Positions 2,987 through 41,224 of a stretch of 41,224 nucleotides of DNA are shown here, one piece after another. A model generated the notes under the pieces. That model ran no database searches. It had not been told where the DNA came from and saw only the letters and a program-made list of their open reading frames with translations. The translations under genes and the position numbers were made by a program. The DNA lies in contig CANQVW010000003.1 of NCBI GenBank assembly GCA_947627395.1, positions 1-41,224 of the forward strand, written 5' to 3'. Each line of letters begins with the position of its first letter. Within the stretch, counting starts at the first letter, position 1. The stretch comes from an uncultured Bacilli bacterium. Lineage in GTDB: Bacteria; Bacillota_I; Bacilli_A; ML615J-28; CAG-698.

Positions 2987-3015
2987 TTGCCTTTTTTATG
3001 CAAAAGTGATACAAT
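2987..3015 (+). promoter_or_regulatory. Sigma-A-type promoter
   Basis: TTGCCT (2987-2992), 17-nt spacer, TACAAT (3010-3015). Confidence 0.6.
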
Positions 3016-3043
3016 AGAAATGTCTAATAAGGAGAAAAATGAT

Positions 3044-4897
3044 ATGAAGAAAAAAATTATATTTTTATTATTTTTATTTGCTTTACTTTTATTTACTGGA
3101 TGCAACAAGGAAACAGTAACCGTTACTTTTGATGGAAATGGTGGAAATTATATCAGTGGTGAATTAACTCAAACCATTACCAAAGGAAAAAAAGCAAAAG
3201 CACCTAAATTTGAACTTGAAGGGTTTGATTTATCTTGGGATCAAAGTCTTTCTTCTATTCAAGAAGATGTAACCATTCATGCCGTATGGAAGAAAAATGG
3301 TTATGGATTAAAAGGATTCAGTGTTGTTGAAGATAATGAAACACATCAAAAAATGTGGAGTATTCGCTTACCCAATGTTTTAGGAGCTATTGTCTTAGAA
3401 GAATATGAAGACTTATCTGAAGGAGTTCGTGTTACTTATTATCAAGATGAGGAAGGGCAAAAACCACTAGATTCTTCAGTTGCAATGCTTTCGATAGGAG
3501 ATAATTATGTTTATGTGCAAATTACAAAAGATCAAGAAACAACGATGGCAACGATTCATATTAGAAGAAGAAAAATTTATCAAGTCTTCTTTGAAACATT
3601 TTGTGACACACATATAGATTATGTTGAAGTTGAAGAGGATCAATTATTAGAAGAACCTAAAGTGGAATTAAAAAGAGATGGATTTCAATTTCAAGGATGG
3701 AATTATGATTTTTCAAAGCCTGTAACTTCTACTTTAAAAGTTCAAGCCAAATGGAAAGGGAATACTTATGAAGTGACTCTAGATCCAAATGAGGGAGAGA
3801 TTTCTAACACTAAGGCTTATGTGACTTGTGGTGAAGAAGCTGATTTAGAAACGCCAACCAGGGAAGGTTATGATTTTATGGGGTGGATGTATGACGGAAA
3901 ACTTGTCAATACATCTTCATGGAACATTCCTCAAAATGTAGCTCTAACAGCTCAATGGGAAAGAAGTGAAATGACATTTGAAATTGATTATGTTATTGTA
4001 GGAGCTGTTGGTCCTAATTTAGATCGCACGTATAGCAATAAACAAGAATTAAAATTAAAAAAACCATACAAGAGTGGATATGAATTTTTAGGTTGGTATT
4101 ACGATAGTAATTTTAATGGAGAACCTGTTACCGTTATCCCAAAGGGAACAGAAGGGAATATCAGGTTATACTCTAAATGGCAAGAATATGTCTTAAAAGG
4201 AAAAAAGGTTTCTTTTTTAGGAGATAGTATTACTACATTTTATGCGGAAAATAGTCCTGTCAATAGTTATTATCATGGTAATAATCAATACTATTATCCA
4301 ATTTATTCAACTTCAGTAAAAAATGTTGATCAAACTTGGTGGAAGATTTTTGTTGATCAAACAGAAACTACATTAGTGACCAATGAGGCTTATAGTGGAT
4401 CTATGGTTACAGGTACTGGAGAAAGTGTTGGAACCAATATCACTCGAATTAAACATCTAAGAAATGATACTTTAGGGGATCCTGATTTAATTATTGTCTA
4501 TTTAGGAACCAACGATTTCATTTATTCCAATCGTGAAACATATCAAGTTAGTTTAACAGAATTTGAAGATGCATATCGATTAATGGTTGAGCGTATTTGT
4601 GAAAATTATCCAATGGCAGATATATTCCTTGGAACATTAGCCTATGAATCAAACTCAGAACACAATCATAAAGATCATAATAGTCCACAAGAAATTGATG
4701 AAAAACGTAATGAGTTTAATCAAATCATTCGTAAAATTGCAATGGAAAATTATGTACAAATCATTGATTTAGCATCTACGATTACAAGAGCAAATTATGC
4801 AACTTATTTAGGAGATTCTGTTCATCCAAATGCGGAAGGAATGAAATTATTTGCCCAAAAAACCATTGAAGATGTAAAATCTTATTTAGGTATCTAA
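3044..4897 (+). CDS. Lipoprotein with InlB B-type repeats and C-terminal SGNH/GDSL hydrolase domain
   Basis: MKKKIIFLLFLFALLLFTGC lipobox. About four repeats (VTVTFDGNGG...AVW; FQFQGWNYDF..AKW; YDFMGWMYDG..AQW; YEFLGWYYDSNFNG..SKW). SGNH motifs FLGDSIT, GTNDF and DSVHPN. The ORF-track start at 2987 overlaps the promoter; 3044 fits better. Confidence 0.88.
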   Translation: MKKKIIFLLFLFALLLFTGCNKETVTVTFDGNGGNYISGELTQTITKGKKAKAPKFELEGFDLSWDQSLSSIQEDVTIHAVWKKNGYGLKGFSVVEDNETHQKMWSIRLPNVLGAIVLEEYEDLSEGVRVTYYQDEEGQKPLDSSVAMLSIGDNYVYVQITKDQETTMATIHIRRRKIYQVFFETFCDTHIDYVEVEEDQLLEEPKVELKRDGFQFQGWNYDFSKPVTSTLKVQAKWKGNTYEVTLDPNEGEISNTKAYVTCGEEADLETPTREGYDFMGWMYDGKLVNTSSWNIPQNVALTAQWERSEMTFEIDYVIVGAVGPNLDRTYSNKQELKLKKPYKSGYEFLGWYYDSNFNGEPVTVIPKGTEGNIRLYSKWQEYVLKGKKVSFLGDSITTFYAENSPVNSYYHGNNQYYYPIYSTSVKNVDQTWWKIFVDQTETTLVTNEAYSGSMVTGTGESVGTNITRIKHLRNDTLGDPDLIIVYLGTNDFIYSNRETYQVSLTEFEDAYRLMVERICENYPMADIFLGTLAYESNSEHNHKDHNSPQEIDEKRNEFNQIIRKIAMENYVQIIDLASTITRANYATYLGDSVHPNAEGMKLFAQKTIEDVKSYLGI

Positions 4898-6112: not shown

Positions 6113-6261
6113 TTATCTCCTAATAAATTCATTATACTACAAAAAATGAGGAAAGGCAAATAAAGAAAAAAAATAAAGTTTTTTTCCCTTCATTCTTTTA
6201 CATTTTTCTTACCTCAAAAAGAATATAGTAGGAGTACTCTTAAAAAAGGAAGGTAGTTTTT

Positions 6262-6303
6262 ATGAATCTATTTTTAATTAAAGATATGGGACAAGCACCA
6301 TAA
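6262..6303 (+). CDS. Possible 13-aa leader/small ORF (MNLFLIKDMGQAP)
   Basis: ATG...TAA preceded by AAGGAAGG at plausible Shine-Dalgarno spacing, in the leader of the 6389 operon. Confidence 0.3.
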   Translation: MNLFLIKDMGQAP

Positions 6304-6388: not shown

Positions 6389-7237
6389 ATGAAAAAATAT
6401 AATAATATTTTAATAGATGAAAATCAAGAAATCGATCATCCAAAGACATATTATACAAAAATATATAATCAAAGTCATGAAATTATTGGTTCAGTTTATC
6501 AACATGTCATTTATAATTTAAATAAAGAACCATGGGGAACTATTTCAAGTACACAAACTGATAAAGTTAGAGAAGTTTTTAGAGATCAACAAGTGATTGC
6601 GAAAATATATGATAATCGCATGTTACTCATTGAACAAGATGAAAAAAATACTCAAGATTTAGACGCTTATGTTTATGTCGGAACGATTCAAAAGTTTACA
6701 CCCGTTCTTTATTGGAGTCTTGGTGGCATCCTGTTAGGAGTGATAGCTGTTCTCATTCTTTTACTTTGCTATCTACCTAGGTGTCCAAAACAAAGGATTC
6801 CTAATATTTCTTTAGAAGCAAGTTCTTCTTTGGATCAATGGAAAGAAACGGAGGATCATCAAATCTCTTTATTTAGAGTAAAAAATCAAAATGAAGAAAG
6901 TATTTTGTATCCTGGAATGGTAGGATCCTATCAAATGACAATTAAAAATAAAGGAAATGAAGATTTAATTTACGAATTTGAATGGAAAGAAAATAATGAT
7001 TGCGAGTTACCCATTGGATATACCATTCAAATTGATGATGAATATATCATTGGAAATGAAAAAGAATTTGTGAAAATAAAAGATTTTTCCAATGTTCAAT
7101 TAGAACTAAAAAAGAAAAAAACTAGTACTATCATGATTACGTATTGTTGGATAGAAGAAGATGAAAAAGATATTACTTATGCAAATCAGGACAATACTTA
7201 TAAAGTCATCTTCGCTATTTTATATCAAGCAAAATAA
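6389..7237 (+). CDS. Single-pass membrane protein with extracellular TasA/camelysin-like domain
   Basis: Cytosolic N-terminus, TM (VLYWSLGGILLGVIAVLILLLCYL), then YPGMVGSYQMTIKNKGNEDLIYEFEWKE...ITYCWIEEDEKDITYANQDNTYKVIFAILYQ, resembling TasA-like secreted domains of Bacillota. Confidence 0.6.
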   Translation: MKKYNNILIDENQEIDHPKTYYTKIYNQSHEIIGSVYQHVIYNLNKEPWGTISSTQTDKVREVFRDQQVIAKIYDNRMLLIEQDEKNTQDLDAYVYVGTIQKFTPVLYWSLGGILLGVIAVLILLLCYLPRCPKQRIPNISLEASSSLDQWKETEDHQISLFRVKNQNEESILYPGMVGSYQMTIKNKGNEDLIYEFEWKENNDCELPIGYTIQIDDEYIIGNEKEFVKIKDFSNVQLELKKKKTSTIMITYCWIEEDEKDITYANQDNTYKVIFAILYQAK

Positions 7238-7254
7238 AAAAGGAGGAATTTAAA

Positions 7255-7821
7255 ATGCGTAAAAAAGTATTTCATAGTTTAGGAATGATTCTAGGATGTA
7301 TGTTATGTATTCTTGCTTTGGTTAGTGGAACAACTTATGCGAAGTATGTTCAAAAGATGAGTGGGCACGATCAAGCAAAAGTAGCATCCTTTATCAATAA
7401 CGTATCAACAGATCATGAAACATTAACTCAAGACACAAATCTTACTTTATGGGAAGATATTATAGCACCAGGAAGCCAGGGTGAGTTTGTTCTTCATGTT
7501 GTGGATCAAAGTGAAGTTCAAGTTCAAGCACTGATGACATTAGAATTAGATAATCCTCAAGAAATTCCACTTCGATTTTCTTATCAAGGAACGACATACG
7601 AAGATCTTGCTTTACTAAATCAAAGATTAAATCAAGTATTGGAGGAAGAATTTAAAAAGGGTCCAACATCGAATATTGATATTGAACTTTCTATTGGATG
7701 GGAATGGCCATTCTTTATTAGTGATGAGCAAGATGAAAAAGACACTCAAATTGCTTCATCCACTTCAACAGTCACCTTACATGTATCCTGCACCTTTATG
7801 CAAGTTGTAAGTGAATCTTGA
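7255..7821 (+). CDS. Secreted TasA/camelysin-like protein with AKY-type (SipW-dependent-like) signal peptide
   Basis: MRKKVFHSLGMILGCMLCILALVSGTTYAKYVQKMSGHDQAKVASFINNV, the typical TYAKY...A-VA-F pattern of these signal sequences. Confidence 0.65.
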   Translation: MRKKVFHSLGMILGCMLCILALVSGTTYAKYVQKMSGHDQAKVASFINNVSTDHETLTQDTNLTLWEDIIAPGSQGEFVLHVVDQSEVQVQALMTLELDNPQEIPLRFSYQGTTYEDLALLNQRLNQVLEEEFKKGPTSNIDIELSIGWEWPFFISDEQDEKDTQIASSTSTVTLHVSCTFMQVVSES

Positions 7822-7832
7822 GGAAGAAAGGT

Positions 7833-8879
7833 ATGAGTTCATCTACTCCTTTTAAAATTATTTTTCAACAAAGCAAGAAGAAAAATAAGGAACCTATTTT
7901 ATTAAGAGAAGAAGAAAAAAACAAAATGTTATTCTTGCTTCTTGGACAAACGGCAATTTATGCATGTTCAAAAATAAAAGATCTTGTTTTTGAATTAAAA
8001 ATACAAGAACAAGAAGTCGTGGTAAAAGTAAAAAGAAATGAAAAAATAGGTATCTATCATGTTCAAAATATGGTAGATTATCGACGTTTTATTGATGAAT
8101 TTTCTTTACAAGAAAATCTAAGTTTATCCTATTTTCCCAATATGTATGCAAAAAAGAAATTAGAAGATGCTTATCAAAATCCATCTCATATTGGATCATA
8201 TACTTTTTATATTTACCAAAATCAAAAAGAAAATAAGGAAGAAAAAACAATGAATGAAGAAATTATAGTTCAAGAATCCATAGAAGAAAAGAAAAATAAA
8301 GAACATACTTCCAAAGAATCTACTTCTTTTAGAACCCATAAGAAAATCAAAAAAAAGAAACGTTATTTTTTATTATTTCTTTTCTTATTCTGTTTAAGCC
8401 CCTACGTGGTTTTAGGAGTATTTGCGAAAAACATGACACGTAAAAGTGGATTATCCACTACGAAGATAGCCGAGTGGCATGATCAATATATCTTGTTAGA
8501 TCATGAAGAAGAAGTAGAGTTTACTTTGGATGAAATTAAAAGCCAAGAAGATCAAAAAGTTTTTCATGTGAAAGTATGTCATTTTGATCAAGATCAAGAA
8601 ACAGAAGTAAAAACAAAGTATCAACTCTTTTTGACAACAACCAATAATATTCCTTTAAATGTTCAAGTATCAGAAGAGGAAAATACAACTTCTTTTTCAT
8701 CAAAAGGGAATGGAGAAATGGAAAAACTTCTTTTATTAGAAGGTACATTAGAACAACAAAAGGAAAGTCATACTTATACATTAATATTTTCTATTGCAAC
8801 TTCTAGTCAATCTTTTATAGAACTAGTGGATGAAATTGATCAAGTAAAGATTTGTATGACTTTTGTGCAAATTGAATAG
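7833..8879 (+). CDS. Membrane-anchored TasA-like operon protein
   Basis: Cytosolic N-terminus, TM (YFLLFLFLFCLSPYVVLGVFA), then TRKSGLSTTKIAEWHD, which echoes the motif seen after AKY signals. ATG at 7833 fits better than the TTG at 7818. Confidence 0.55.
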   Translation: MSSSTPFKIIFQQSKKKNKEPILLREEEKNKMLFLLLGQTAIYACSKIKDLVFELKIQEQEVVVKVKRNEKIGIYHVQNMVDYRRFIDEFSLQENLSLSYFPNMYAKKKLEDAYQNPSHIGSYTFYIYQNQKENKEEKTMNEEIIVQESIEEKKNKEHTSKESTSFRTHKKIKKKKRYFLLFLFLFCLSPYVVLGVFAKNMTRKSGLSTTKIAEWHDQYILLDHEEEVEFTLDEIKSQEDQKVFHVKVCHFDQDQETEVKTKYQLFLTTTNNIPLNVQVSEEENTTSFSSKGNGEMEKLLLLEGTLEQQKESHTYTLIFSIATSSQSFIELVDEIDQVKICMTFVQIE

Positions 8880-8881
8880 AA

Positions 8882-9643
8882 ATGAGGAAAATTATGAAAA
8901 AGAAACTCTCCTATATTATTACGTTAAGTTTATTTTTATTATGTAGTTTTGCTTTAGGTAGTTTTTGTATTTATGCAAAATATAAACAAGAAAAAGAACA
9001 AAGTACTTCTTTATCCTTTCAAAAAAGTTATTTAAATATATCTAATCCTCAAACAAAAGAGTTTATATTAGATGAGAATCAAAGATTTTCTATTGAAGTA
9101 TCGAATACACTTTATGGAAATATGACTCCTTTTGATTTAATTTATGACATTGAAATTGTAGATGAAGTTCATGGGATAGAAAACACATTGCTTCAAAAAA
9201 GTGAGGAAGAACTGAAAGCAACAGGAACAGAAAATAAAAATATTTATAGTGATCTTTTACTGAGTAGTGGAGGAAATGAAATTCACCATGTTACTGTCAC
9301 TTTGACATCTACTTCAGGATATCATCAATTCATTCAAAACACATTTGATGTATCTATAGCAACCAATTTACAAGAAAAAATATCCTACGAACTTTTAGAT
9401 ATGCCTGGAAATATTGCTAGTATTTTTAAAATTACCATTCCAGATTTATATCGTAAGAGGGACGTTACTTTTAATATTCAATTTCCAGCTACTCTTGTTT
9501 TACAAGAAAATTCATTGGTGGATTCTTTAACCAACGAAAACTTAAAGACAACTTTAGAAAGAGGTGGAAATTATACTTTTTATTTTTTTAAAGAGGATAT
9601 CAATCAAATCTATACATTAGATCAATTTCAAATAAGGTGGTAA
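8882..9643 (+). CDS. Secreted TasA-like protein with AKY-type signal peptide
   Basis: KKKLSYIITLSLFLLCSFALGSFCIYAKYKQEKEQSTSLSFQKSYLNI. Alternate ATG at 8894. Confidence 0.55.
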   Translation: MRKIMKKKLSYIITLSLFLLCSFALGSFCIYAKYKQEKEQSTSLSFQKSYLNISNPQTKEFILDENQRFSIEVSNTLYGNMTPFDLIYDIEIVDEVHGIENTLLQKSEEELKATGTENKNIYSDLLLSSGGNEIHHVTVTLTSTSGYHQFIQNTFDVSIATNLQEKISYELLDMPGNIASIFKITIPDLYRKRDVTFNIQFPATLVLQENSLVDSLTNENLKTTLERGGNYTFYFFKEDINQIYTLDQFQIRW

Positions 9644-9647
9644 ATAA

Positions 9648-12600
9648 ATGAAAACACGTCAAACTTTAAGAAAAATTCTTTTTTTAGGAATTTTATTTAG
9701 CCTACTCAGTGTATCTTTTTTTGTTCCAAATACATATGCATCGATATGGGATCAAGAAGTTAATACACAGTGGTATCAAAAAGCAAAGAAAGAATATCAT
9801 ATTACAAGTCCAGCCGAGTTCGCTGGTTTATCTACAATTGTTTCTGGTGTGGGAGAAATTCAAGATTCTTTTCTTGGAAAAACCATTTATATAGAAGAAG
9901 ATCTTCTTATCAATGATTTATCCTTTCCAACCATCGGAACAGAAGAATATTCTTTTGAAGGGACATTGGATGGAAAAAATCATTTTCTTGAAGGAGTTCT
10001 TTTTGAGGATGGATTTGGTTTATTTCCCATTCTAAAAGGAACTATTAAAAATGTGAAAATAAAACAAGTTACACTTTCAAATTATAAAGATTCTTTTGGA
10101 ATTATAACCAATATCAATCAAGGAACCATTCGAAATTGTTCCATTGAAGAGATTACACTTCTACCTGAAGAAGATATAGAGATTTCTTCTTTTGGAATTG
10201 TTTCAGGAATCAATGAAGGAATCATCGACCAAGTAAAAGTCCATGGTTTTATGGAAATTGCTTTAAAAAACATGTATGTAGGTGGGATTAGTGGTATCAA
10301 TCATGGAGAAATCAAGGAATGTCAAAACGATATTGAAATTACGTCAAACAATGATTATTTAGGTGGAATTGTTGGAAAAAATGAAGGATTTATTAGTGAC
10401 TGTTTGAATCAAGGAAATATGATTTCTTCAGGTTCTTATATTGGTGGAATTGTTGGAATAAATGAGGGTGGAAGAATACAATATGTGACCAATACAGGAA
10501 CTATCACGGGTGAAAAAGATTCTATTGGTGGTCTTGTTGGAGAAATGATAGAAGGTACTTTATCTTCATCACTCAATCAAGGGGAAGTTTTAGGAGCAAT
10601 AAATAGTTCATATATAGGTGGTCTTGTTGGAAAAATGACATCCTCTCATCTTGAGTTATGTTCTAATGAAGCCAATATCAATTTAACAAGCGATTTATCT
10701 ACGAATCAAGGAAAATATGTAGGTGGTCTTATTGGATATATGACTTCAAGTACATTATCTAATTCAGTCCAAAAAGAAAATAAAGTTCAAGGAGAAGATT
10801 ACGTTGGAGGTGTTATTGGATATCTAGAATCAGGGGATGTTGAATATGTTTTAACATCCGCTATCACGCAAAATATAGAAGATAAAAACTGTTCATCCAT
10901 CGCAAACATTTTATCTCCCAACATTGCAAAGTTTCTTTACACATTTACAACAGAAGACACCCCACCTACTTTAGTGGGATCTTTCATTGCAAAAGAAAGA
11001 ATTACAAAAGAAGTATTTTTATTATTCACATCATTATCCAATACCAAGAGGGATTCATGGAGTATTGATCAAGAAACGATAGAGCTTTCCTATATTGGTG
11101 CTAAAGATATTTTACCAATTTTTAAAACTTGGGTGGATGTTGCTCTTTATATGGAAAGAGGAAAAGAAACGAATGGAGTATTAAGAGATGATATTTTAAA
11201 AGAATGTCAAACTAAGAAGTCTTTTACCATTACAAAGCCAGAACAACTTGCATGGATTATGTATCAAATGAATCAAAACGCTTCTTTTCAAAATCTTCAT
11301 CTTCAATTAGGAAATGATATTGATATGAGTGGAAAAACTTATCAAAATGGACAACCATTAGAATGGTATCCGATATCCGATTCCCCTGTGAATGCATTTC
11401 AAGGAATTTTTGATGGAAGAAATTATGCAATTTTAAATCTTGTGATGAATCAAAACACTCCTTATACAGGGCTTTTTGGATATACTTCGGAACAAGCTTT
11501 GATTCAAAACCTTATTTTAGAGGCAGAAATTACGGGAAATATGTATGTTGGATCTGTAGTTGGATATCATTGGGGAACCATTACAAACTGCAAGATCAAA
11601 CAAGTAAGTATTCATAAATCAAGTGGATATACGGGAGGAATTGTTGGGTACAACGAAGGAATCATCACTCATTCTATCGTTCAAAGAATTGATGTAGTTG
11701 ATGGAGGATATTATTTAGGTGGTCTTGTTGGAATGAATACAGGAAAAATCGAAGATTGTAAAACCCAAAATGGAACGCTTCAAGGTGCATATTATGTGGG
11801 CGGCATTGTTGGTGGAAATATGAACAATATTACACAGTGTAGTAATGCTTGTAGCATCACATCATGTGATAAAGGAAGCTTTCATGGAACAGGAGGAATT
11901 GTTGGAATACATCAATTAGGTCAAATTACTTCTTGTTATAACCAAGGAAATATTGAAGGATCTATTTCAATTGGTGGGATTGTTGGATATCTTAAAAGTG
12001 GTCAAGTCAAAACTTGTTACAATATCGGAAAAGTTCAAGGAATGGAAAGCATAGGAGGAATTGTTGGAAAAGGAAGTGGATGTATTGAAGAAGCGTTCAA
12101 TACAGAAGAAATCACATTTTTAAACACAATGGCGGGTGGAATTGCTGGTACATTTGATGGAACCATCGAAAATTGTTACAACACAGGAATTGTAAACGCA
12201 AAACAGTTCTTTGCTGGAATTGTAGGTAAATTAGAAAAAGGATTTTTACGTACTTGTTATGTTAGAATTTTAGATGAAGAATATTTACCTTCATTCATTG
12301 TCGGATATTTCAATGGAACGATGGAGAATTGTTACACTTTATCCCAAGATTTAGATTCTTCAAATTCTTTCTTATATCAAGATAAAACAAACACATCAGA
12401 AGTCATTTCATCATCTTCACTCATTCTATCGCAGATGACATGCACAAGTTTAGAAGATCCATTATTTGTTATGGAAGGTTTTTCCTCTTCACCATGGACA
12501 ATATTTTTATCAAAAGAGAATCAATATTATTTTCCAGTATTAACTTCCTTTTTGGATTCTTCAATATATCAAGTAAGAAAAGATGCTATGCAAAGTACAA

Positions 12601-13679
12601 GCTATTTTCTTTTCTCAATTCCTACACTTGGAATCGAAAGCTTTGCTTCTAATCAATGGAATTATCAATTATCAGAAATTCTTCCAAGAGAGGAAATAAA
12701 AGAGGATTTAAAAGGATTTTTATGTTTTCATTTATATAGTTATTCATCTAGTTCTACCTTAACTTCTTTTTCACTTCAAGCAACAAATGAAGAACTTTGT
12801 TTACCAGTAAATACTTTCATTTCTTGTGTTGTCCTAGACCATCAAGGAAAAAGAATTTATGTAAAACAAAACAAAGTTCAAAATGAAAATATGATTTGGG
12901 AATTACCAAATTCATGTATCATTGAAGAAGATACATTTATTACGATTTTATTTTATCTAACTTTTCCAGAAGAAATATCAACTTTCTCATGTTCTGTTCA
13001 ATTGCAAGGAACATTTGAAAATCAGTATCAAGAAATTCCATCTCATCCTGTTACATTATCTTATGAAAAAGAAGAAGATGAAATCTTTCATTCCTTAGAT
13101 TTATGTGATAATGGCATGATTATTCATATCTTAGAAGATTTAAAACAAAATGTGCAAGGAAAAATACTTCTTTATGTACTTTTAGAAGATGAAGAAGGTT
13201 TCCATTTAGCACTTTCTTCTAATGAGAAAGAAATTTATCTAAGCGATTTACCTGTTGGAAAGTATACATTGACCATCAAAAAATATTGGGTGTCTTTAGA
13301 GGACTCATACGCCCTAGGAGGACAATATATTTCTAGTTTTACAGAGGAAGTATCCATCACCGGAAAAGATATTTTTAAACTTCCAGAAGAGGAAGAGCAC
13401 TCAAAAACAGTTTTAGTAATCGATCAAAATCAAAAAAGAATATTTCAAGAAGAAGAAGATATTCAAATTCAATTTACTTATCCAATAGAAAAAGAAACAC
13501 TTTATTATGAATTATATCAAAAACAAAATCAAAACTATGAACAACTGATTGAAAAAACACCAGTAACATTGTTATCAAATACCATCTTTAATTATAATAA
13601 TACCTTAGAAAAAGGAACTTATCGTTTTATCTTTTATCTAAAAGATGCGAAAATGATTTATAATATTTTAGTTGTATAA
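9648..13679 (+). CDS. Large secreted GLUG-repeat surface protein
   Basis: Signal peptide (ILFLGILFSLLSVSFFVPNTYASIWD). About 16-17 GLUG-type repeats (GGIVGxNEGxI...) in two arrays. Confidence 0.85.
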   Translation: MKTRQTLRKILFLGILFSLLSVSFFVPNTYASIWDQEVNTQWYQKAKKEYHITSPAEFAGLSTIVSGVGEIQDSFLGKTIYIEEDLLINDLSFPTIGTEEYSFEGTLDGKNHFLEGVLFEDGFGLFPILKGTIKNVKIKQVTLSNYKDSFGIITNINQGTIRNCSIEEITLLPEEDIEISSFGIVSGINEGIIDQVKVHGFMEIALKNMYVGGISGINHGEIKECQNDIEITSNNDYLGGIVGKNEGFISDCLNQGNMISSGSYIGGIVGINEGGRIQYVTNTGTITGEKDSIGGLVGEMIEGTLSSSLNQGEVLGAINSSYIGGLVGKMTSSHLELCSNEANINLTSDLSTNQGKYVGGLIGYMTSSTLSNSVQKENKVQGEDYVGGVIGYLESGDVEYVLTSAITQNIEDKNCSSIANILSPNIAKFLYTFTTEDTPPTLVGSFIAKERITKEVFLLFTSLSNTKRDSWSIDQETIELSYIGAKDILPIFKTWVDVALYMERGKETNGVLRDDILKECQTKKSFTITKPEQLAWIMYQMNQNASFQNLHLQLGNDIDMSGKTYQNGQPLEWYPISDSPVNAFQGIFDGRNYAILNLVMNQNTPYTGLFGYTSEQALIQNLILEAEITGNMYVGSVVGYHWGTITNCKIKQVSIHKSSGYTGGIVGYNEGIITHSIVQRIDVVDGGYYLGGLVGMNTGKIEDCKTQNGTLQGAYYVGGIVGGNMNNITQCSNACSITSCDKGSFHGTGGIVGIHQLGQITSCYNQGNIEGSISIGGIVGYLKSGQVKTCYNIGKVQGMESIGGIVGKGSGCIEEAFNTEEITFLNTMAGGIAGTFDGTIENCYNTGIVNAKQFFAGIVGKLEKGFLRTCYVRILDEEYLPSFIVGYFNGTMENCYTLSQDLDSSNSFLYQDKTNTSEVISSSSLILSQMTCTSLEDPLFVMEGFSSSPWTIFLSKENQYYFPVLTSFLDSSIYQVRKDAMQSTSYFLFSIPTLGIESFASNQWNYQLSEILPREEIKEDLKGFLCFHLYSYSSSSTLTSFSLQATNEELCLPVNTFISCVVLDHQGKRIYVKQNKVQNENMIWELPNSCIIEEDTFITILFYLTFPEEISTFSCSVQLQGTFENQYQEIPSHPVTLSYEKEEDEIFHSLDLCDNGMIIHILEDLKQNVQGKILLYVLLEDEEGFHLALSSNEKEIYLSDLPVGKYTLTIKKYWVSLEDSYALGGQYISSFTEEVSITGKDIFKLPEEEEHSKTVLVIDQNQKRIFQEEEDIQIQFTYPIEKETLYYELYQKQNQNYEQLIEKTPVTLLSNTIFNYNNTLEKGTYRFIFYLKDAKMIYNILVV

Positions 13680-13795: not shown

Positions 13796-13833
13796 AAAAA
13801 AACTCTCTTGTATATAGATATAAGGGAGTTTTT
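13796..13833 (+). terminator. Rho-independent terminator of the GLUG operon
   Basis: AACTCTCTT...AAGGGAGTT followed by T tract. Confidence 0.7.
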
Positions 13834-14257: not shown

Positions 14258-14593
14258 ATGAAAGAGGTAAATATGATTTATACTGACAAGGAAAAGCAAA
14301 TTGCAAAAGAATTTATTGATTGTAAGATCCCAAATTATATGTATGATTATGATGAAGAATTTAAAAAAACACATCATTTAGATATGGATACTATGGAATA
14401 TTATGAAGCATTATTTGATTATGCTCATTGTATTTTAGATGATTATAAACTTGAATCTAATTTTTCAAAAGCCTTAAGAAACAAAGAATTATACTTTTTG
14501 ATTATGAAGCAAAAGAAAAACATTATTCAAAAACATTTTTCTAATAAAGTAAGTATGTTATTTGAAGTAATAAAAAAATATATAGAAATTTAA
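14258..14593 (+). CDS. Hypothetical protein (111 aa)
   Basis: Open ORF with plausible composition. ATGAAAGAGG/ATGATTTATACTG alternate starts. No recognised domain. Confidence 0.5.
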   Translation: MKEVNMIYTDKEKQIAKEFIDCKIPNYMYDYDEEFKKTHHLDMDTMEYYEALFDYAHCILDDYKLESNFSKALRNKELYFLIMKQKKNIIQKHFSNKVSMLFEVIKKYIEI

Positions 14594-14677
14594 ATAGAAT
14601 ATTTCTTTATTTATATTTCAATGAAGTTTTTACTATGTGATTACCTTAGATAGAAATTTTTGAATTCTAAAATTGTC

Positions 14678-14706
14678 TTGACTTTCACGATGTTTTTTGA
14701 TAAAAT
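14678..14706 (+). promoter_or_regulatory. Sigma-A-type promoter of the MATE transcript
   Basis: TTGACT (14678-14683), 17-nt spacer, TAAAAT (14701-14706). Confidence 0.65.
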
Positions 14707-14730
14707 ATCAATGTAAAAATAATAGAGCTT

Positions 14731-14834
14731 AACGACACATGTGGCGCTTTCCAGCGTGTAAATCTGATTACGGTACGGAAGCGGTCGCAAGTGTCTTTTT
14801 TTATGAACGACACAAGTTTTTTGTGTCGTTTTGC
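14731..14834 (+). ncRNA. Riboswitch-like leader plus intrinsic terminator upstream of MATE gene; candidate guanidine-IV (mepA motif)
   Basis: GACAC(14734-14738)/GTGTC(14791-14795) closing stem, with inner helices TGTGGC/GTCGCA, CGCTT(T)CC/GGAAGCG and GTAA/TTAC. Then AACGACAC..GTGTCGTTTT terminator (14806-14834), whose 3' arm is also complementary to the leader 5' strand. Confidence 0.6.
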
Positions 14835-14852
14835 TCTTATTTGGAGGGATTT

Positions 14853-16247
14853 ATGGAAAATAATGATTATCTTGGCAAAGAAAAAATAGGAAAACTTCTT
14901 TTAAAGTTTGCGATACCCTGTATTCTTTCTTTGATTATTTCTTGCCTTTACAATATCGTCAATCAAATATTTGTAGGGAATAGTAAAGTTGGATATTTAG
15001 GAAATGCAGCAACAGGGGTCATTTTTCCCATTACGGTCATTGGATGGGGACTTTCCTTATTTTTTGGAGATGGTGCTGCTGCGTGGCTATCTGTTTCTTT
15101 AGGTGAGGGAAAAGGTGAAAAAATTCATCAATGTGTTGGAAATGCACTTCTTGCTTCATTTTTATCAGGATGTATTGTCATACTCATTGCTTATCTATGG
15201 GGTGATTCTCTATTAATGCTTTTAGGTGGAACAGAGGCAAATCTTTCTCTTGCTCATGATTATGGAATCATTATTTATGCCATGATGCCCCTTGCACTTG
15301 TACAAAATTCTCTTGCCGCAATTATTCGTGCTGATGGAGCACCCAAATATGCTATGTTTGCCATGGCTATGGGGGCAGTTATAAATATTATTGGGGATCC
15401 CATTGCAATTTATGCACTTGATCTTGGAATAAAGGGAGCTGCTTATGCAACAATTTTGGGTCAGTTTACTAGCTTTATCATTTGCATCTTTTATTTAAGA
15501 AAAAGTAAAACTTTTAAAATTAAATTAAAAAGTTTTCTTCCAGATTTAAAAATTTTAGTAAAAATTATGACACTAGGTGCATCAAGCTTTTTCACCCAAC
15601 TATGTATTGTTGCTACAACAGTCGTTAATAATATCTTATTTGTACAATATGGAATGAAAAGTGAGTTTGGTGCAGACATACCTCTTGCAGCATTTGTTGT
15701 CATCATGAAATTATTTCAGATTGTTTTAAACATTGCCTTTGGAATTGCAGCAGGAAGTCAGCCGATTATTGGTTATAATTATGGTGCAAAACACTATGAG
15801 AGAGTAAAACAAATTTTTAAACTTATGTTGATATCAACAACAGTAATTTGTCTTGTGTTTACCATGTTATTTGAACTATTCCCACGTGCATTTATATCTA
15901 TGTTTGGCGCAGGTGGAGGACAAGAGGGACTTGATATTGAACTTTACATGAAATTTGCAATTCCATGTATTAGAATTTATTTAATGTTCATTGTGTTTAC
16001 TTGTTTGCAAAAGACCGTTTCCATCTTTTTACAATCTATTGGACAGGCAAAACTTGCTACACCACTCTCATTCCTTCGAGATATTTTATTGATTCTATTC
16101 GCGTTTCTTGTTCCTATTAAACTGGGTGTTATGGGTGTTGCATGGGCTGCACCAATTGCTGATGCAGTGGCAATGCTCATCACTTTACCTATAATCCTAT
16201 GGATAATATCCAATAGATATAAATATCTAATGGACAATATCAAATAG
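14853..16247 (+). CDS. MATE family efflux transporter (MepA-like)
   Basis: 12-TM MATE sequence (KLLLKFAIPCILSLIISCLYNIVNQIFVGN, IIRADGAPKYAMFAMAMGAVINIIGDPIAIY, AAGSQPIIGYNYGAKHYERVKQ). ATG 14853 has GGAGGG SD; the ORF-track start at 14739 lies inside the structured leader. Confidence 0.93.
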   Translation: MENNDYLGKEKIGKLLLKFAIPCILSLIISCLYNIVNQIFVGNSKVGYLGNAATGVIFPITVIGWGLSLFFGDGAAAWLSVSLGEGKGEKIHQCVGNALLASFLSGCIVILIAYLWGDSLLMLLGGTEANLSLAHDYGIIIYAMMPLALVQNSLAAIIRADGAPKYAMFAMAMGAVINIIGDPIAIYALDLGIKGAAYATILGQFTSFIICIFYLRKSKTFKIKLKSFLPDLKILVKIMTLGASSFFTQLCIVATTVVNNILFVQYGMKSEFGADIPLAAFVVIMKLFQIVLNIAFGIAAGSQPIIGYNYGAKHYERVKQIFKLMLISTTVICLVFTMLFELFPRAFISMFGAGGGQEGLDIELYMKFAIPCIRIYLMFIVFTCLQKTVSIFLQSIGQAKLATPLSFLRDILLILFAFLVPIKLGVMGVAWAAPIADAVAMLITLPIILWIISNRYKYLMDNIK

Positions 16248-24310: not shown

Positions 24311-24535
24311 ATCAAATGCTATGAAGAGGACAAGATATAAGATCAACTCATGATCAGTGATGCAGGATAGTGAGAACTGCAAATGAAGCATCTTATGTTA
24401 CTACCTCAGAGCAGAACCTGAAAAGGAATTTCGCTTCCAGCGTTAACGGAAAATGAAGAGCTTGGTCATCCAAGAATAAAGGTGGTACCGCGGAAAAATT
24501 CGTCCTTTGATGTATTTCAAAGGCTTTTTTTATAT
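24311..24535 (+). ncRNA. T-box leader (threonyl) upstream of thrS
   Basis: Conserved AAAGGTGGTACCGCG (24478-24492), Stem I elements (GAAGAGGACAAG), terminator CCTTTGA..TCAAAGG plus T-run (24504-24530). ACT-ACC (24400-24405), both Thr codons, sit beside the predicted lower Stem I. Confidence 0.93.
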
Positions 24536-36967: not shown

Positions 36968-37020
36968 GATAATATAGTCGGATGACTATGAAAAAAAATT
37001 TAATACTAGGAGGAAAAAGT

Positions 37021-40000
37021 ATGAAAAAGCTATTAGCCTTGTTCGTGCTAATGTTAAGTGTATTCGTCTTTGTGGGATGTGATAAAACTAAAAATCCTAC
37101 ACTAGATTTTGATACAAAATCTTATACACTTAAAATTAACGAAGAAGTAACATTAGAACCTAAAGTTACTAACTTTGAAGGCGAACCTACCGTGAATTAC
37201 ACTGTTGCCGATGAAAATGTTGTTCAAGTAACGAATGGTGTAATGAAAGGAATGGCAGAAGGTAGTACAACTGTTACTGCTAGTCTTGAAGGACATAGCA
37301 AAGTAAAAGTTGAATTACAAGTTACTGTCACAAGCGATACTCAAGAAATTCCAGTAACTAGTGTAGCAGTTACAGGTGATAATACAGTTAGAGTAGGTCA
37401 AAAGATTACTCTTACAGCGACCGTTACCCCAGCAAATGCAACAAATGCAGAAGTTACTTGGGAATCTAGCAACGCTGCAGTTGCAACCGTTGAAAATGGT
37501 ACAGTTACTGGTGTTACAGTTGGAACTGTTGATATTACTGCAAAAGCAGGTGGCAAAGAGGGTAAGATGAGCGTTACCGTTGCTGCTCCTCTTGGAACTG
37601 AAATTTCTATTAATGGAACAGCTACAATGAATGCTGGAACTGAGCAAACATTAACTGCAACCGTTTCTCCAGCAACTGCTAGTCAAGAAGTTGCTTGGAC
37701 ATCAAGCGATAACACTAAGGCTACTGTTGATGCAACTGGTAAAGTAAGTGCTCTTGCTGCAGGAGAAGTAACCATCACAGCAACAACTAAAGATGGAAGC
37801 AATGTTAAAAAAGATTTTAAAATAACAATTACAGCTTTAGCAACTAAAGTTGAAGTAACTGGACCAACTGAAATGAAAGTTGGAGAAACAAAAACATTAA
37901 CTGCAGCCGTTACTCCAGCAACTGCAAATCAAAGCGTTAATTGGCAAAGTAGTGATAATACTAAAGCTACTGTCACTCAAAGTGGTGAAGTAACTGCACT
38001 TGTTGCAGGAGAAGTAACCATCACAGCAACCGCTATAGATGGAACTGATATCTCTGGATCAATTACAATTACTATCACTGTTCCACAAGTTGAAGTGATT
38101 TCTGTAACAGGAAATGCCAACATGAATGTAGGAGAATCTCAACAATTGACTGCTGTTGTCGCTCCAGCAAATGCTAATCAAGAAGTAACTTGGACATCAA
38201 GTGCTTCTACTACAGCACAAGTAAGTGAAACAGGTAAAGTTACTGCACTTGCTGCAGGAGAAGTAACCATCACAGCAACCGCTAAAGATGGAAGCAATGT
38301 TTCAGGTACAATTACAATTACAATCGTTGTACCAAAAGTTTCATCTATTGAAATTAAAGGTATTAACAGAATGGCTATCGGTAAATCCCAAACATTAACA
38401 GCAACTGTTTTACCAGCAGGTGCTGAAAAAGGAGTTACATGGTCAGTTAACGACGGTACTAAAGCAGAAATTAATGCTGATACAGGTGAAATTACTGCCA
38501 AAGCTGCAGGCGAAGTTACTGTTACTGCAACAGCAAAAGATGGTAGCAATACAACTGGAACATTTACAATTAAAATTGAACAATATGATATGTCAAAATT
38601 CGTTGTTGATTCCACATTAACTGATGGAGCTACATTCACATACGAAGAAGTTGACTTTAAAGAAGGAGTTAATGCTTTCAAAACTTTAGCTGAAGTATTG
38701 GAAGCTGCTGAAGAAAATTCAACAATTTACTTCAAACCAGGTACATATGAACAATCATTAACTATTTCCACAAACAATTTGACATTCGTTGGTCCTAATG
38801 CAGGTAAAAATCCAAATAAAGATGAGCGTAGTGAAGAAGCTATCCTTAAAGGTGTTATTCGATTTGCTGAAAACACAACAGGAATTACATTTGATGGATT
38901 TGAATTTACTGGATCTACTTCTCTAGAAACAATATCTTATTTCTATGAATTCGTATTTAGAAATAATAATGTTCATGATATTACAAGAACTAGAGGCGAA
39001 GGCGACGACAAAATTAGTGATGCCGTTTATAAACCTGTTAATAGAGTAAGACCATTCTCATTCTTATTGCTTTATGAAGAAGCAATGGGAGGAGCAAATT
39101 TACTTGGAAATATGACCATCCAAAATAATAAATTTGAAAACTTAAATTGTAACGTTATGAGTTTCTCACGTACAAGTCCAGATAAAAATATTATTATTGA
39201 TGGAAATGTCATTAGAAATATGGCTCAAGAAGGAATTCGTTTTGATGGTGGATATAACAATGGTAATTATTACATTACCAACAATGTATTTGAAAACGAT
39301 GAATTAGGAAGCTGTACAGCAATCTTATTCCGTGCTTATAGTGCTAATCAAGGTTTAACTCAAAACATTACTATTCAACACAATTCATTCAAGAATATTG
39401 GTAATCCTGAACTTTATTCTGAGTTACCAGAATATGTTGCCGCAATTGCATTCAATATGTATAATGATGTAAATGCAAGCTTATATATTTCATACAACAC
39501 ATTTGAAGATTGTTATCGTGGAATCAAGTTAAGAAATAATACAAGTTATCCTGATACTTGGTTAGGTGAAATTCATTATAATTACTTCAAAAACATGACT
39601 GCTGAAATCTATATTGAAGGTGATGCAGGAGAAGGAGGTAATTTAGGTTTATTCACTTATAACTACTTCGAAGATGCTGAAGGAAATCCTATCATTGATG
39701 AAACTACTTTATCTTCATTGATATTAAAAGCAAAATCTTATGCAAATTACTTCAAGAATAAATATGATTATTTAAGCGCTATTCAATCTACAGAAGATGA
39801 AGCAACTCTTTATGTTGATGGAAACTGGTCATCTTTAAGTGAAGGTGAAGAAGTTTTATTCCAATCATTAAAGTTAATTGTTGGTGTTAATGCATTTGGA
39901 ACTATTCAAGAAGCATTAGATGCAGCAAAAGATGGCGATGTTATTTATATCTTTGCTGGAACATATGCTGAAGACTTAACAGTTTCTAAGAATGTTCATT

Positions 40001-41224
40001 TCTATGGACCAAACGTATCTATTAATCCTAACTATCAAGAAAGAGTTGCAGAAGCTATGATTGATGGTGAAATTAAAATTGGTGCAGTTACTGATGTTTC
40101 ATTTGTTGGATTAGAATTCTTTAACGATATTCTTTTCCGTTCAGTTGATGCTCAAACAACCATCAAAGGATTAACGATGGATAAATGTTACTTCACAGCA
40201 ACAACATTCCCATCAGGACCAGATGCAATCGTATACTTTGCTGGACCAACTGAAGATTGCACATTTAATGAAAACTTATTTGAAGATACATTAGGTAAAT
40301 TAGGTAGAGTGATTCGTTTTGTTGATTCAAAGAATTTAACTGTCACAAATAATGTATTTAATGGTGGATTCGATATTTTCTACGCTGAAGGAACCAAAGG
40401 TTTATACGGAACAACTACAATCAATTATAATGAGTTCTCAAACTGGAATCAATTTGCCTTGAATATTCGTTTAATTACAGGAACTGACTTTATAGTTAAA
40501 GGAAATAATTTCACTTCAACTGCAGCGTTGGGTGGAGCTAGTGATTATGCAGGTGTTATTAACATTACTTCTTTCGCTGGTGCAGAAAACTGTACAGTAG
40601 ATATCGAATATAATGTTTGGACAGATGTTCGTGGATGGCATGTTATTCGTTTACGAGATCAAGCTGCAAAAGCTACTAATATCCATGTAAATGTTCATCA
40701 TAATGAATTCTTAGGTGATATTATGAACACCACAACTCCTACAACTATTTTGTTTATTCAAAATGATAGTGAAGAAGCAGATGTTGTTAATGCCGATCAA
40801 AACTATTATGAAGGTTCAGATAAACAACCATTTACTCCAGCAGATAATTTATTTACAAATGTTGGTTCACGTACAAATGATTATGTAACAAAAGCTGAAG
40901 TTGACCAAGCAATTAAATTATATTTAATGCAAGGTAAATCTGGTTATGGAGAAACTGTTCTTCCTACTGGAATTACAATTAATAACAAAATTGAAACTTT
41001 GTTATTTGGTGAAGAACATCAAATCAACTATACTCTTACTCCAATGGAAGTAACAAACAAAAAAGTATCTTTCACAAGTAGTGATGAAGATGTTGCTACA
41101 GTTAGTGCAACAGGACTTGTTAAACCTACAGGTACAAAGAGTGGAACTGTAACGATTACAGTTACATGTCTTGCTGATGAAAACATTACAGATAGCATGA
41201 CAATTCAAGTTACTCATCCAACAG
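37021..41224 (+). CDS. Large BIG2 (bacterial Ig-like) repeat lipoprotein with right-handed beta-helix regions (3'-truncated at window edge)
   Basis: MKKLLALFVLMLSVFVFVGCDK lipobox. BIG2 units (TLTATVSPATASQEVAWTSSDNTKATVDATGKVSALAAGEVTITATTKDGS), then beta-helix-like sequence (STIYFKPGTYEQSLTIS.., GDVIYIFAGTYAEDLTVS..), then another BIG2 unit. Frame open to the end; absent from ORF track for lack of an in-window stop. Confidence 0.9.
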   Translation, partial: MKKLLALFVLMLSVFVFVGCDKTKNPTLDFDTKSYTLKINEEVTLEPKVTNFEGEPTVNYTVADENVVQVTNGVMKGMAEGSTTVTASLEGHSKVKVELQVTVTSDTQEIPVTSVAVTGDNTVRVGQKITLTATVTPANATNAEVTWESSNAAVATVENGTVTGVTVGTVDITAKAGGKEGKMSVTVAAPLGTEISINGTATMNAGTEQTLTATVSPATASQEVAWTSSDNTKATVDATGKVSALAAGEVTITATTKDGSNVKKDFKITITALATKVEVTGPTEMKVGETKTLTAAVTPATANQSVNWQSSDNTKATVTQSGEVTALVAGEVTITATAIDGTDISGSITITITVPQVEVISVTGNANMNVGESQQLTAVVAPANANQEVTWTSSASTTAQVSETGKVTALAAGEVTITATAKDGSNVSGTITITIVVPKVSSIEIKGINRMAIGKSQTLTATVLPAGAEKGVTWSVNDGTKAEINADTGEITAKAAGEVTVTATAKDGSNTTGTFTIKIEQYDMSKFVVDSTLTDGATFTYEEVDFKEGVNAFKTLAEVLEAAEENSTIYFKPGTYEQSLTISTNNLTFVGPNAGKNPNKDERSEEAILKGVIRFAENTTGITFDGFEFTGSTSLETISYFYEFVFRNNNVHDITRTRGEGDDKISDAVYKPVNRVRPFSFLLLYEEAMGGANLLGNMTIQNNKFENLNCNVMSFSRTSPDKNIIIDGNVIRNMAQEGIRFDGGYNNGNYYITNNVFENDELGSCTAILFRAYSANQGLTQNITIQHNSFKNIGNPELYSELPEYVAAIAFNMYNDVNASLYISYNTFEDCYRGIKLRNNTSYPDTWLGEIHYNYFKNMTAEIYIEGDAGEGGNLGLFTYNYFEDAEGNPIIDETTLSSLILKAKSYANYFKNKYDYLSAIQSTEDEATLYVDGNWSSLSEGEEVLFQSLKLIVGVNAFGTIQEALDAAKDGDVIYIFAGTYAEDLTVSKNVHFYGPNVSINPNYQERVAEAMIDGEIKIGAVTDVSFVGLEFFNDILFRSVDAQTTIKGLTMDKCYFTATTFPSGPDAIVYFAGPTEDCTFNENLFEDTLGKLGRVIRFVDSKNLTVTNNVFNGGFDIFYAEGTKGLYGTTTINYNEFSNWNQFALNIRLITGTDFIVKGNNFTSTAALGGASDYAGVINITSFAGAENCTVDIEYNVWTDVRGWHVIRLRDQAAKATNIHVNVHHNEFLGDIMNTTTPTTILFIQNDSEEADVVNADQNYYEGSDKQPFTPADNLFTNVGSRTNDYVTKAEVDQAIKLYLMQGKSGYGETVLPTGITINNKIETLLFGEEHQINYTLTPMEVTNKKVSFTSSDEDVATVSATGLVKPTGTKSGTVTITVTCLADENITDSMTIQVTHPT

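Follow-up and report, generated by a model that had tools for sequence, protein, structure and literature searches.

Five open reading frames lie close together on one strand at positions 6389-13679 of the window, by which the whole analysed stretch of 41,224 nucleotides from an uncultured Bacilli bacterium is meant. The locus raises the question of what the secreted and membrane-bound products of these genes build, and of how they would be processed, as no SipW-type peptidase is encoded in the window. In the sequence-only reading, the locus had been taken to assemble matrix fibres or an adhesin, with its membrane proteins as possible anchors.

Layout of the operon

The ORF listing of the window contains all five same-strand ORFs reported earlier (Table 1). 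Their starts were re-judged from ribosome-binding sites and from the proteins of G001, the only other genome of the genus in the comparison (a MAG of an uncultured Bacilli bacterium, isolate Lapin-032__bin111, 98% complete). By these means, ORF3 most likely starts at ATG 7833, giving 348 rather than 353 residues, and ORF4 at ATG 8894, giving 249 rather than 253, which leaves intergenic gaps of 17, 11, 14 and 4 bases. Exactly one hydrophobic stretch is present in each of the five proteins. A divergent DUF362/ferredoxin gene forms the upstream limit of the operon. A short leader ORF, MNLFLIKDMGQAP at 6262, was dropped, as it is not conserved in G001. The single terminator described after the last gene was confirmed as a 16-pair hairpin followed by a U-run (-16.8 kcal/mol, z = -5.3); since an A-run precedes the hairpin and a U-run trails it, this terminator is possibly bidirectional. 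The hairpin was not among the results of a simple terminator scan, presumably because of the limits of that scan on loop and G+C.

Table 1. The operon and its signals, in window coordinates
Feature	Position	Strand	Description
Probable promoter region	6197..6230	+	TTTACA, 21 bases, TATAGT(A); kept in G001; from upstream alignment of the window with L012, and inference
ORF1, 282 aa	6389..7237	+	Cytosolic domain, membrane helix, extracellular TasA-like domain; candidate anchored base
ORF2, 188 aa	7255..7821	+	Secreted TasA-like subunit, TYAKY signal; candidate main fibre subunit
ORF3, 348 aa	7833..8879	+	Cytosolic region, internal SipW-type signal FAKN, TasA-like domain
ORF4, 249 aa	8894..9643	+	Secreted protein, IYAKY signal
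ORF5, 1343 aa	9648..13679	+	Signal peptide, two GLUG-repeat modules; candidate adhesin/cargo
Intrinsic terminator hairpin	13798..13833	.	Closes operon; A-run before, U-run after

TasA-like domains in three of the five proteins

ORF2 and ORF4 both carry a clear AKY-type signal at the N-terminus, as had been noted for the two secreted proteins. The ORF2 family was aligned from seven, later twelve, sequences of the order; the AK at the end of the signal is invariant (12/12), and an APG and DT core is conserved. In a search of the whole genome, the profile of this family recovered the ectodomains of ORF3 (E 1.6e-7) and ORF1 (E 3.4e-6), and it also reached a TasA-family gene (PF12389) adjoining sipW in G001. 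Direct comparison of family profiles by hhalign gave a probability of 99.1% (E 1.6e-18) between the ORF2 and ORF1 families and of 98.1% (E 1e-13) between the ORF2 and ORF3 families, the latter alignment running through the signal. The predicted model of ORF2 is a beta-sandwich (pLDDT 72.5), and its top Foldseek match in the PDB is Bacillus subtilis TasA 5of2 (E 1.2e-3, probability 0.99); 5of1 and 8aur, the TasA fibre, are among the first five matches as well. The E-values are modest, however, and the TM-scores are low at about 0.35. The segment of residues 25-56, which covers the end of the signal and the stretch behind it, is unstructured in the model, as would be expected of a donor strand. 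A TasA-type beta-sandwich is thus indicated for ORF2 by fold match, and for the other two proteins by the homology of their profiles to that of ORF2. The earlier assignment of TasA-like domains holds for these three proteins, whereas ORF4 could not be linked to the family. Folds unrelated to TasA, or genes failing to co-occur in relatives, would have spoken against the earlier proposal as a whole; both points were examined and it was not refuted.

General databases see little of this homology, which emerges from the family profiles. None of the five proteins matches the TasA/camelysin model PF12389 above its cut-off in a Pfam scan, no NCBIfam model matched any of them, including those of TapA/YqxM type, and the repeats of ORF5 are all that Pfam and NCBIfam recognise. 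A paralogue in G001 does match PF12389 at 23.7 bits (cut-off 22.5), and a sequence search of the PDB with the ORF2-family profile returned nothing meaningful. PF12389 is named camelysin metallo-endopeptidase, and the TasA-like proteins could by that name be read as metalloproteases of the cell envelope. This is very improbable, as the five proteins have no direct match to that family and no conserved metal-site motif is present in the family alignments.

ORF1 consists of a beta-rich cytosolic domain of ~100 residues, one membrane helix at about 103-134, and the extracellular TasA-like domain. Since the ORF1-family profile aligns onto ORF2 from the signal helix of ORF2 onward, the membrane helix of ORF1 appears to correspond to a former signal that would no longer be cut and has become a permanent membrane helix; the ORF1 family alignment has no AK cleavage motif. 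On this sequence evidence ORF1 is a real anchor candidate, the predicted membrane-anchored base subunit. The predicted model of ORF1 itself is poor (pTM 0.42), and a fold search with it gave low-confidence matches to unrelated beta proteins and no match to TasA.

ORF3 differs in its helix. About 165 cytosolic residues precede an internal signal with FAKN, which is followed by the TasA-like ectodomain, and AK is invariant in the six sequences of the family, so that a SipW-type signal with a conserved AK(Y/F) end is found in the ORF2 and ORF3 families. The relatives of ORF3 in G025, G033, G037 and G028 have no cytosolic extension at all. Because the aligned helix keeps AK and these relatives lack the extension, ORF3 is better read as a predicted SipW-type substrate with a long cytosolic N-terminus than as a plain anchor. 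The two proteins had been described as single-pass, with cytosolic N-termini and TasA-like ectodomains, and as possible anchors. The ectodomains are indeed TasA-like and ORF1, with its presumably uncut helix, is a probable anchor, but ORF3 does not look like an ordinary anchored protein.

It could be supposed instead that ORF1 and ORF3 are membrane sensors, whose cytosolic domains report on extracellular TasA-like ligand domains, with the AKY proteins as ligands or adhesins that form no long fibres. Their cytosolic regions of 100-165 residues would suit such a role, and in three members of the ORF1 group a beta-flower fold is weakly suggested (Bflower_2, best E 0.011). However, several relatives keep the ectodomain without a cytosolic part, the helix of ORF3 resembles a cleavable signal, and a search for a kinase, cyclase or DNA-binding domain found none; sensors are therefore improbable. 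The cytosolic regions of ORF1 and ORF3 are unrelated to each other, and comparison of the ORF1 region with those of more distant families was not significant.

By its position in the operon, ORF4 corresponds to AKY/RYIK proteins of other genera. By hhalign it gave a probability of 10% against the ORF2 family and 5% against the long AKY/RYIK proteins found in those genera, and a profile search recovered its own two members alone. In ORF5, the GLUG repeats reported for the 1343-aa protein were upheld by the Pfam scan (PF07581, 99.6 bits, eight stretches). Its signal peptide ends in TYA, the GLUG modules lie at about 55-400 and 530-900, and the C-terminal region has no known domain and no obvious anchor; ORF5 is proposed as a putative adhesin or cargo. 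Further GLUG-repeat proteins are encoded elsewhere in the genus, at G001:C1:28905 (a frame of 3221 aa) and, in the window's genome (G000), on contigs C157 and C160.

Relatives, signal peptidases and neighbouring genes

All five genes are present in G001 in identical order, with matching upstream neighbours. Identity between the operon proteins of the two genomes is 34-52%, against 56-84% for those flanking genes that aligned over most of their length, as is typical of surface proteins that evolve rapidly. Downstream, at 14258-16247, a 111-aa ORF without a Pfam match and a transporter that is MATE-like by sequence only separate the operon from the DD-carboxypeptidase-like and polA genes; both are missing at the corresponding place in G001.

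The survey of the order covered 43 genomes, 10 of which encode a strong homologue of ORF2, with E below 1e-30. A sipW gene lies in the same operon in eight of them, the remaining two being this genus, and membrane proteins of ORF1 type accompany the ORF2 homologue in seven. ORF1 is absent in G025, G033 and G037, where the last gene of the operon has leucine-rich DUF285 repeats instead of GLUG. Related membrane-bound TasA-like proteins are also found in four other families of the class, outside the order in f7, f11 and f21. In each of four loci read outside the order, such a protein adjoins a subunit with a SipW-type signal and sipW; the cytosolic domain of the ORF1-type proteins there is variable or missing. 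Co-occurrence of the genes in relatives, which had been put forward as a check, is thus seen for the full order in G001, but outside the genus only for a core. From these comparisons, the full set of five appears to be conserved only within the genus (two genomes), and the wider core to be TasA-like subunits plus sipW, with the adhesin gene varying between genera. An apparent frame of 24,217 aa with an AKY-type TasA-like N-terminus (G031:C9 from 15662, L058 / L088) was discarded as an artefact, 72,000 of 80,000 bases being masked N.

The earlier remark that the window encodes no signal peptidase is correct, but the genome does encode one of SipW type, which the suggested search of its remaining contigs located on C139. 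This protein scores 58 bits (E 7e-16) with NF046067, below the cut-off of 190, and 38.8 bits with TIGR02228, below the cut-off of 51.85; the Ser and His motifs SESM and THR are present, and a TasA-family gene lies downstream. One ordinary signal peptidase I was found, on C66. As the assembly is ~85% complete, more SipW-type genes may exist. G001 has four SipW-type genes on contig C1 and one weak match elsewhere, none of them on the contig of this operon. C139, together with a fragment on C129, corresponds to a second G001 locus that encodes SipW, a TasA-like protein and a 1255-aa protein; in the latter, GLUG-like repeats come after an ALF-type signal and a TasA-like domain, although the protein did not reach the threshold of the GLUG model. 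A third type of SipW locus is found at G001:C1:14000-32000 (L051), with several secreted proteins bearing AWF signals, three sipW-type genes and an AAA-type ATPase; this ATPase was not found in the window's genome. Because sipW lies inside the equivalent operon in other genera and outside it in this genus, the simplest reading is that the substrates of the operon are likely processed by a SipW-type peptidase in trans. In B. cereus, the calY operon is likewise separate from sipW (PMC13082335).

The neighbourhood also contains genes of spore formation. A CotE spore-coat gene (1864-2385) is followed by a SafA-like LysM gene (2408-2929), and the genome also encodes SpoIVA; because all three are present, this small-genome bacterium is probably a spore former. 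The same fibre machinery might accordingly be made during sporulation and form an appendage of the spore surface or a coat layer, not a biofilm matrix. The two coat genes lie ~3.5-4.5 kb upstream of the operon in G001 as well, in genus g21 the operon has a gene for a SigK-type sigma factor at a distance of ~4 kb, and TasA was first named as a spore component (PMC10151520). Of the operon-bearing genomes with a completeness of 84% or more, all nine encode SpoIVA, versus 12 of the 27 others (one-sided Fisher p 0.003), but this association is confounded by relatedness, with p 0.05 and 0.34 within the two families separately. Moreover, the divergent gene and a GDSL lipase gene stand between the coat genes and the operon, coat genes are absent from the neighbourhoods in other genera, and the conserved promoter, judged by hand, misfits the spacing for sigma-E or sigma-K. 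A spore structure is thus considered unlikely, although it is the foremost competing reading and less improbable than sensors. The product of the lipase gene (2987-4897) is probably a lipoprotein, in which Listeria-Bacteroides repeats accompany the GDSL lipase domain; the gene is kept in G001. Elsewhere in the window, a T-box leader (Rfam RF00230, 102.6 bits) occupies 24312-24510 at the start of the gene at 24482, and a surface protein of very large size, containing six or more Big_2 Ig-like domains (36982-41223), runs off the contig end.

A probable TasA-type fibre system with a membrane-embedded TasA-like protein

The operon probably encodes a TasA-type extracellular fibre system (a probability of roughly two in three), in which ORF2 would form the fibre, ORF1 its base, ORF3 and ORF4 minor components, and ORF5 the adhesin. 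The original proposal of a matrix-fibre or adhesin locus is favoured in this form by the TasA-like domains, the SipW-type signals, the GLUG partner and the probable anchor, sipW being missing only locally. After export, a SipW-type peptidase encoded at another locus of the genome would cut ORF2 behind its AKY-type signal. The ORF2 subunits would then polymerise, each donating its free N-terminal strand to its neighbour, as TasA fibres assemble by donor-strand exchange (PMC9674648). ORF1, with the same domain on a presumably uncut membrane helix, may serve as the anchored base at which the fibre starts or stops; in Bacillus, TasA fibres are started by TapA (PMC10151520). ORF3 and ORF4 would act as minor subunits or assembly factors, and ORF5, as a large GLUG adhesin, would be presented on the fibre or attached to it; GLUG or leucine-rich adhesins may be the variable cargo of such fibres.

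With tapA-sipW-tasA of Bacillus subtilis the operon shares the TasA fold, SipW-type signals and several components in one operon, but it has no sipW and does have a membrane-embedded TasA-like protein and a GLUG protein. The Bacillus cereus genes sipW-tasA, capP (bc1280) and calY similarly provide more than one TasA-like subunit, an assembly helper and one subunit gene apart from sipW; however, CapP has DUF4047 and is secreted, and no membrane-anchored TasA-like base is described there (PMC13082335). In sipW-bsaABCRSD of Clostridium perfringens, several secreted proteins of a SipW operon polymerise without sortase, but that operon has its own two-component system and sipW, and no GLUG protein is described (PMC7395162). 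ORF5 resembles other GLUG-repeat surface proteins (PF07581) in its repeats, here in two modules, and differs from them in being encoded with TasA-like proteins; the second locus of the genus even fuses a GLUG-like protein to a TasA-like domain. No literature was found on TasA-like systems in uncultured gut Bacilli, or on such systems together with GLUG proteins. The operon represents a new variant of the TasA/SipW systems, chiefly for its membrane-embedded TasA-like protein.

More tentatively, it may belong to a branch of TasA-type systems that spans the class. In such a branch, fibres would be grown on or ended by a membrane-embedded base, a cytosolic domain would couple assembly to the cell inside, and GLUG or leucine-rich cargo would be interchangeable. 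Even for Bacillus, to our knowledge, the way in which TasA-type fibres are attached to the cell has not been fully worked out. A membrane protein bearing the fibre-subunit domain, found in several families, is a direct candidate for the base of the fibre. These findings indicate that systems of this kind are widespread among uncultured Bacilli with small genomes, and the operon is a case in which the genes of SipW-type substrates lie apart from any sipW gene.
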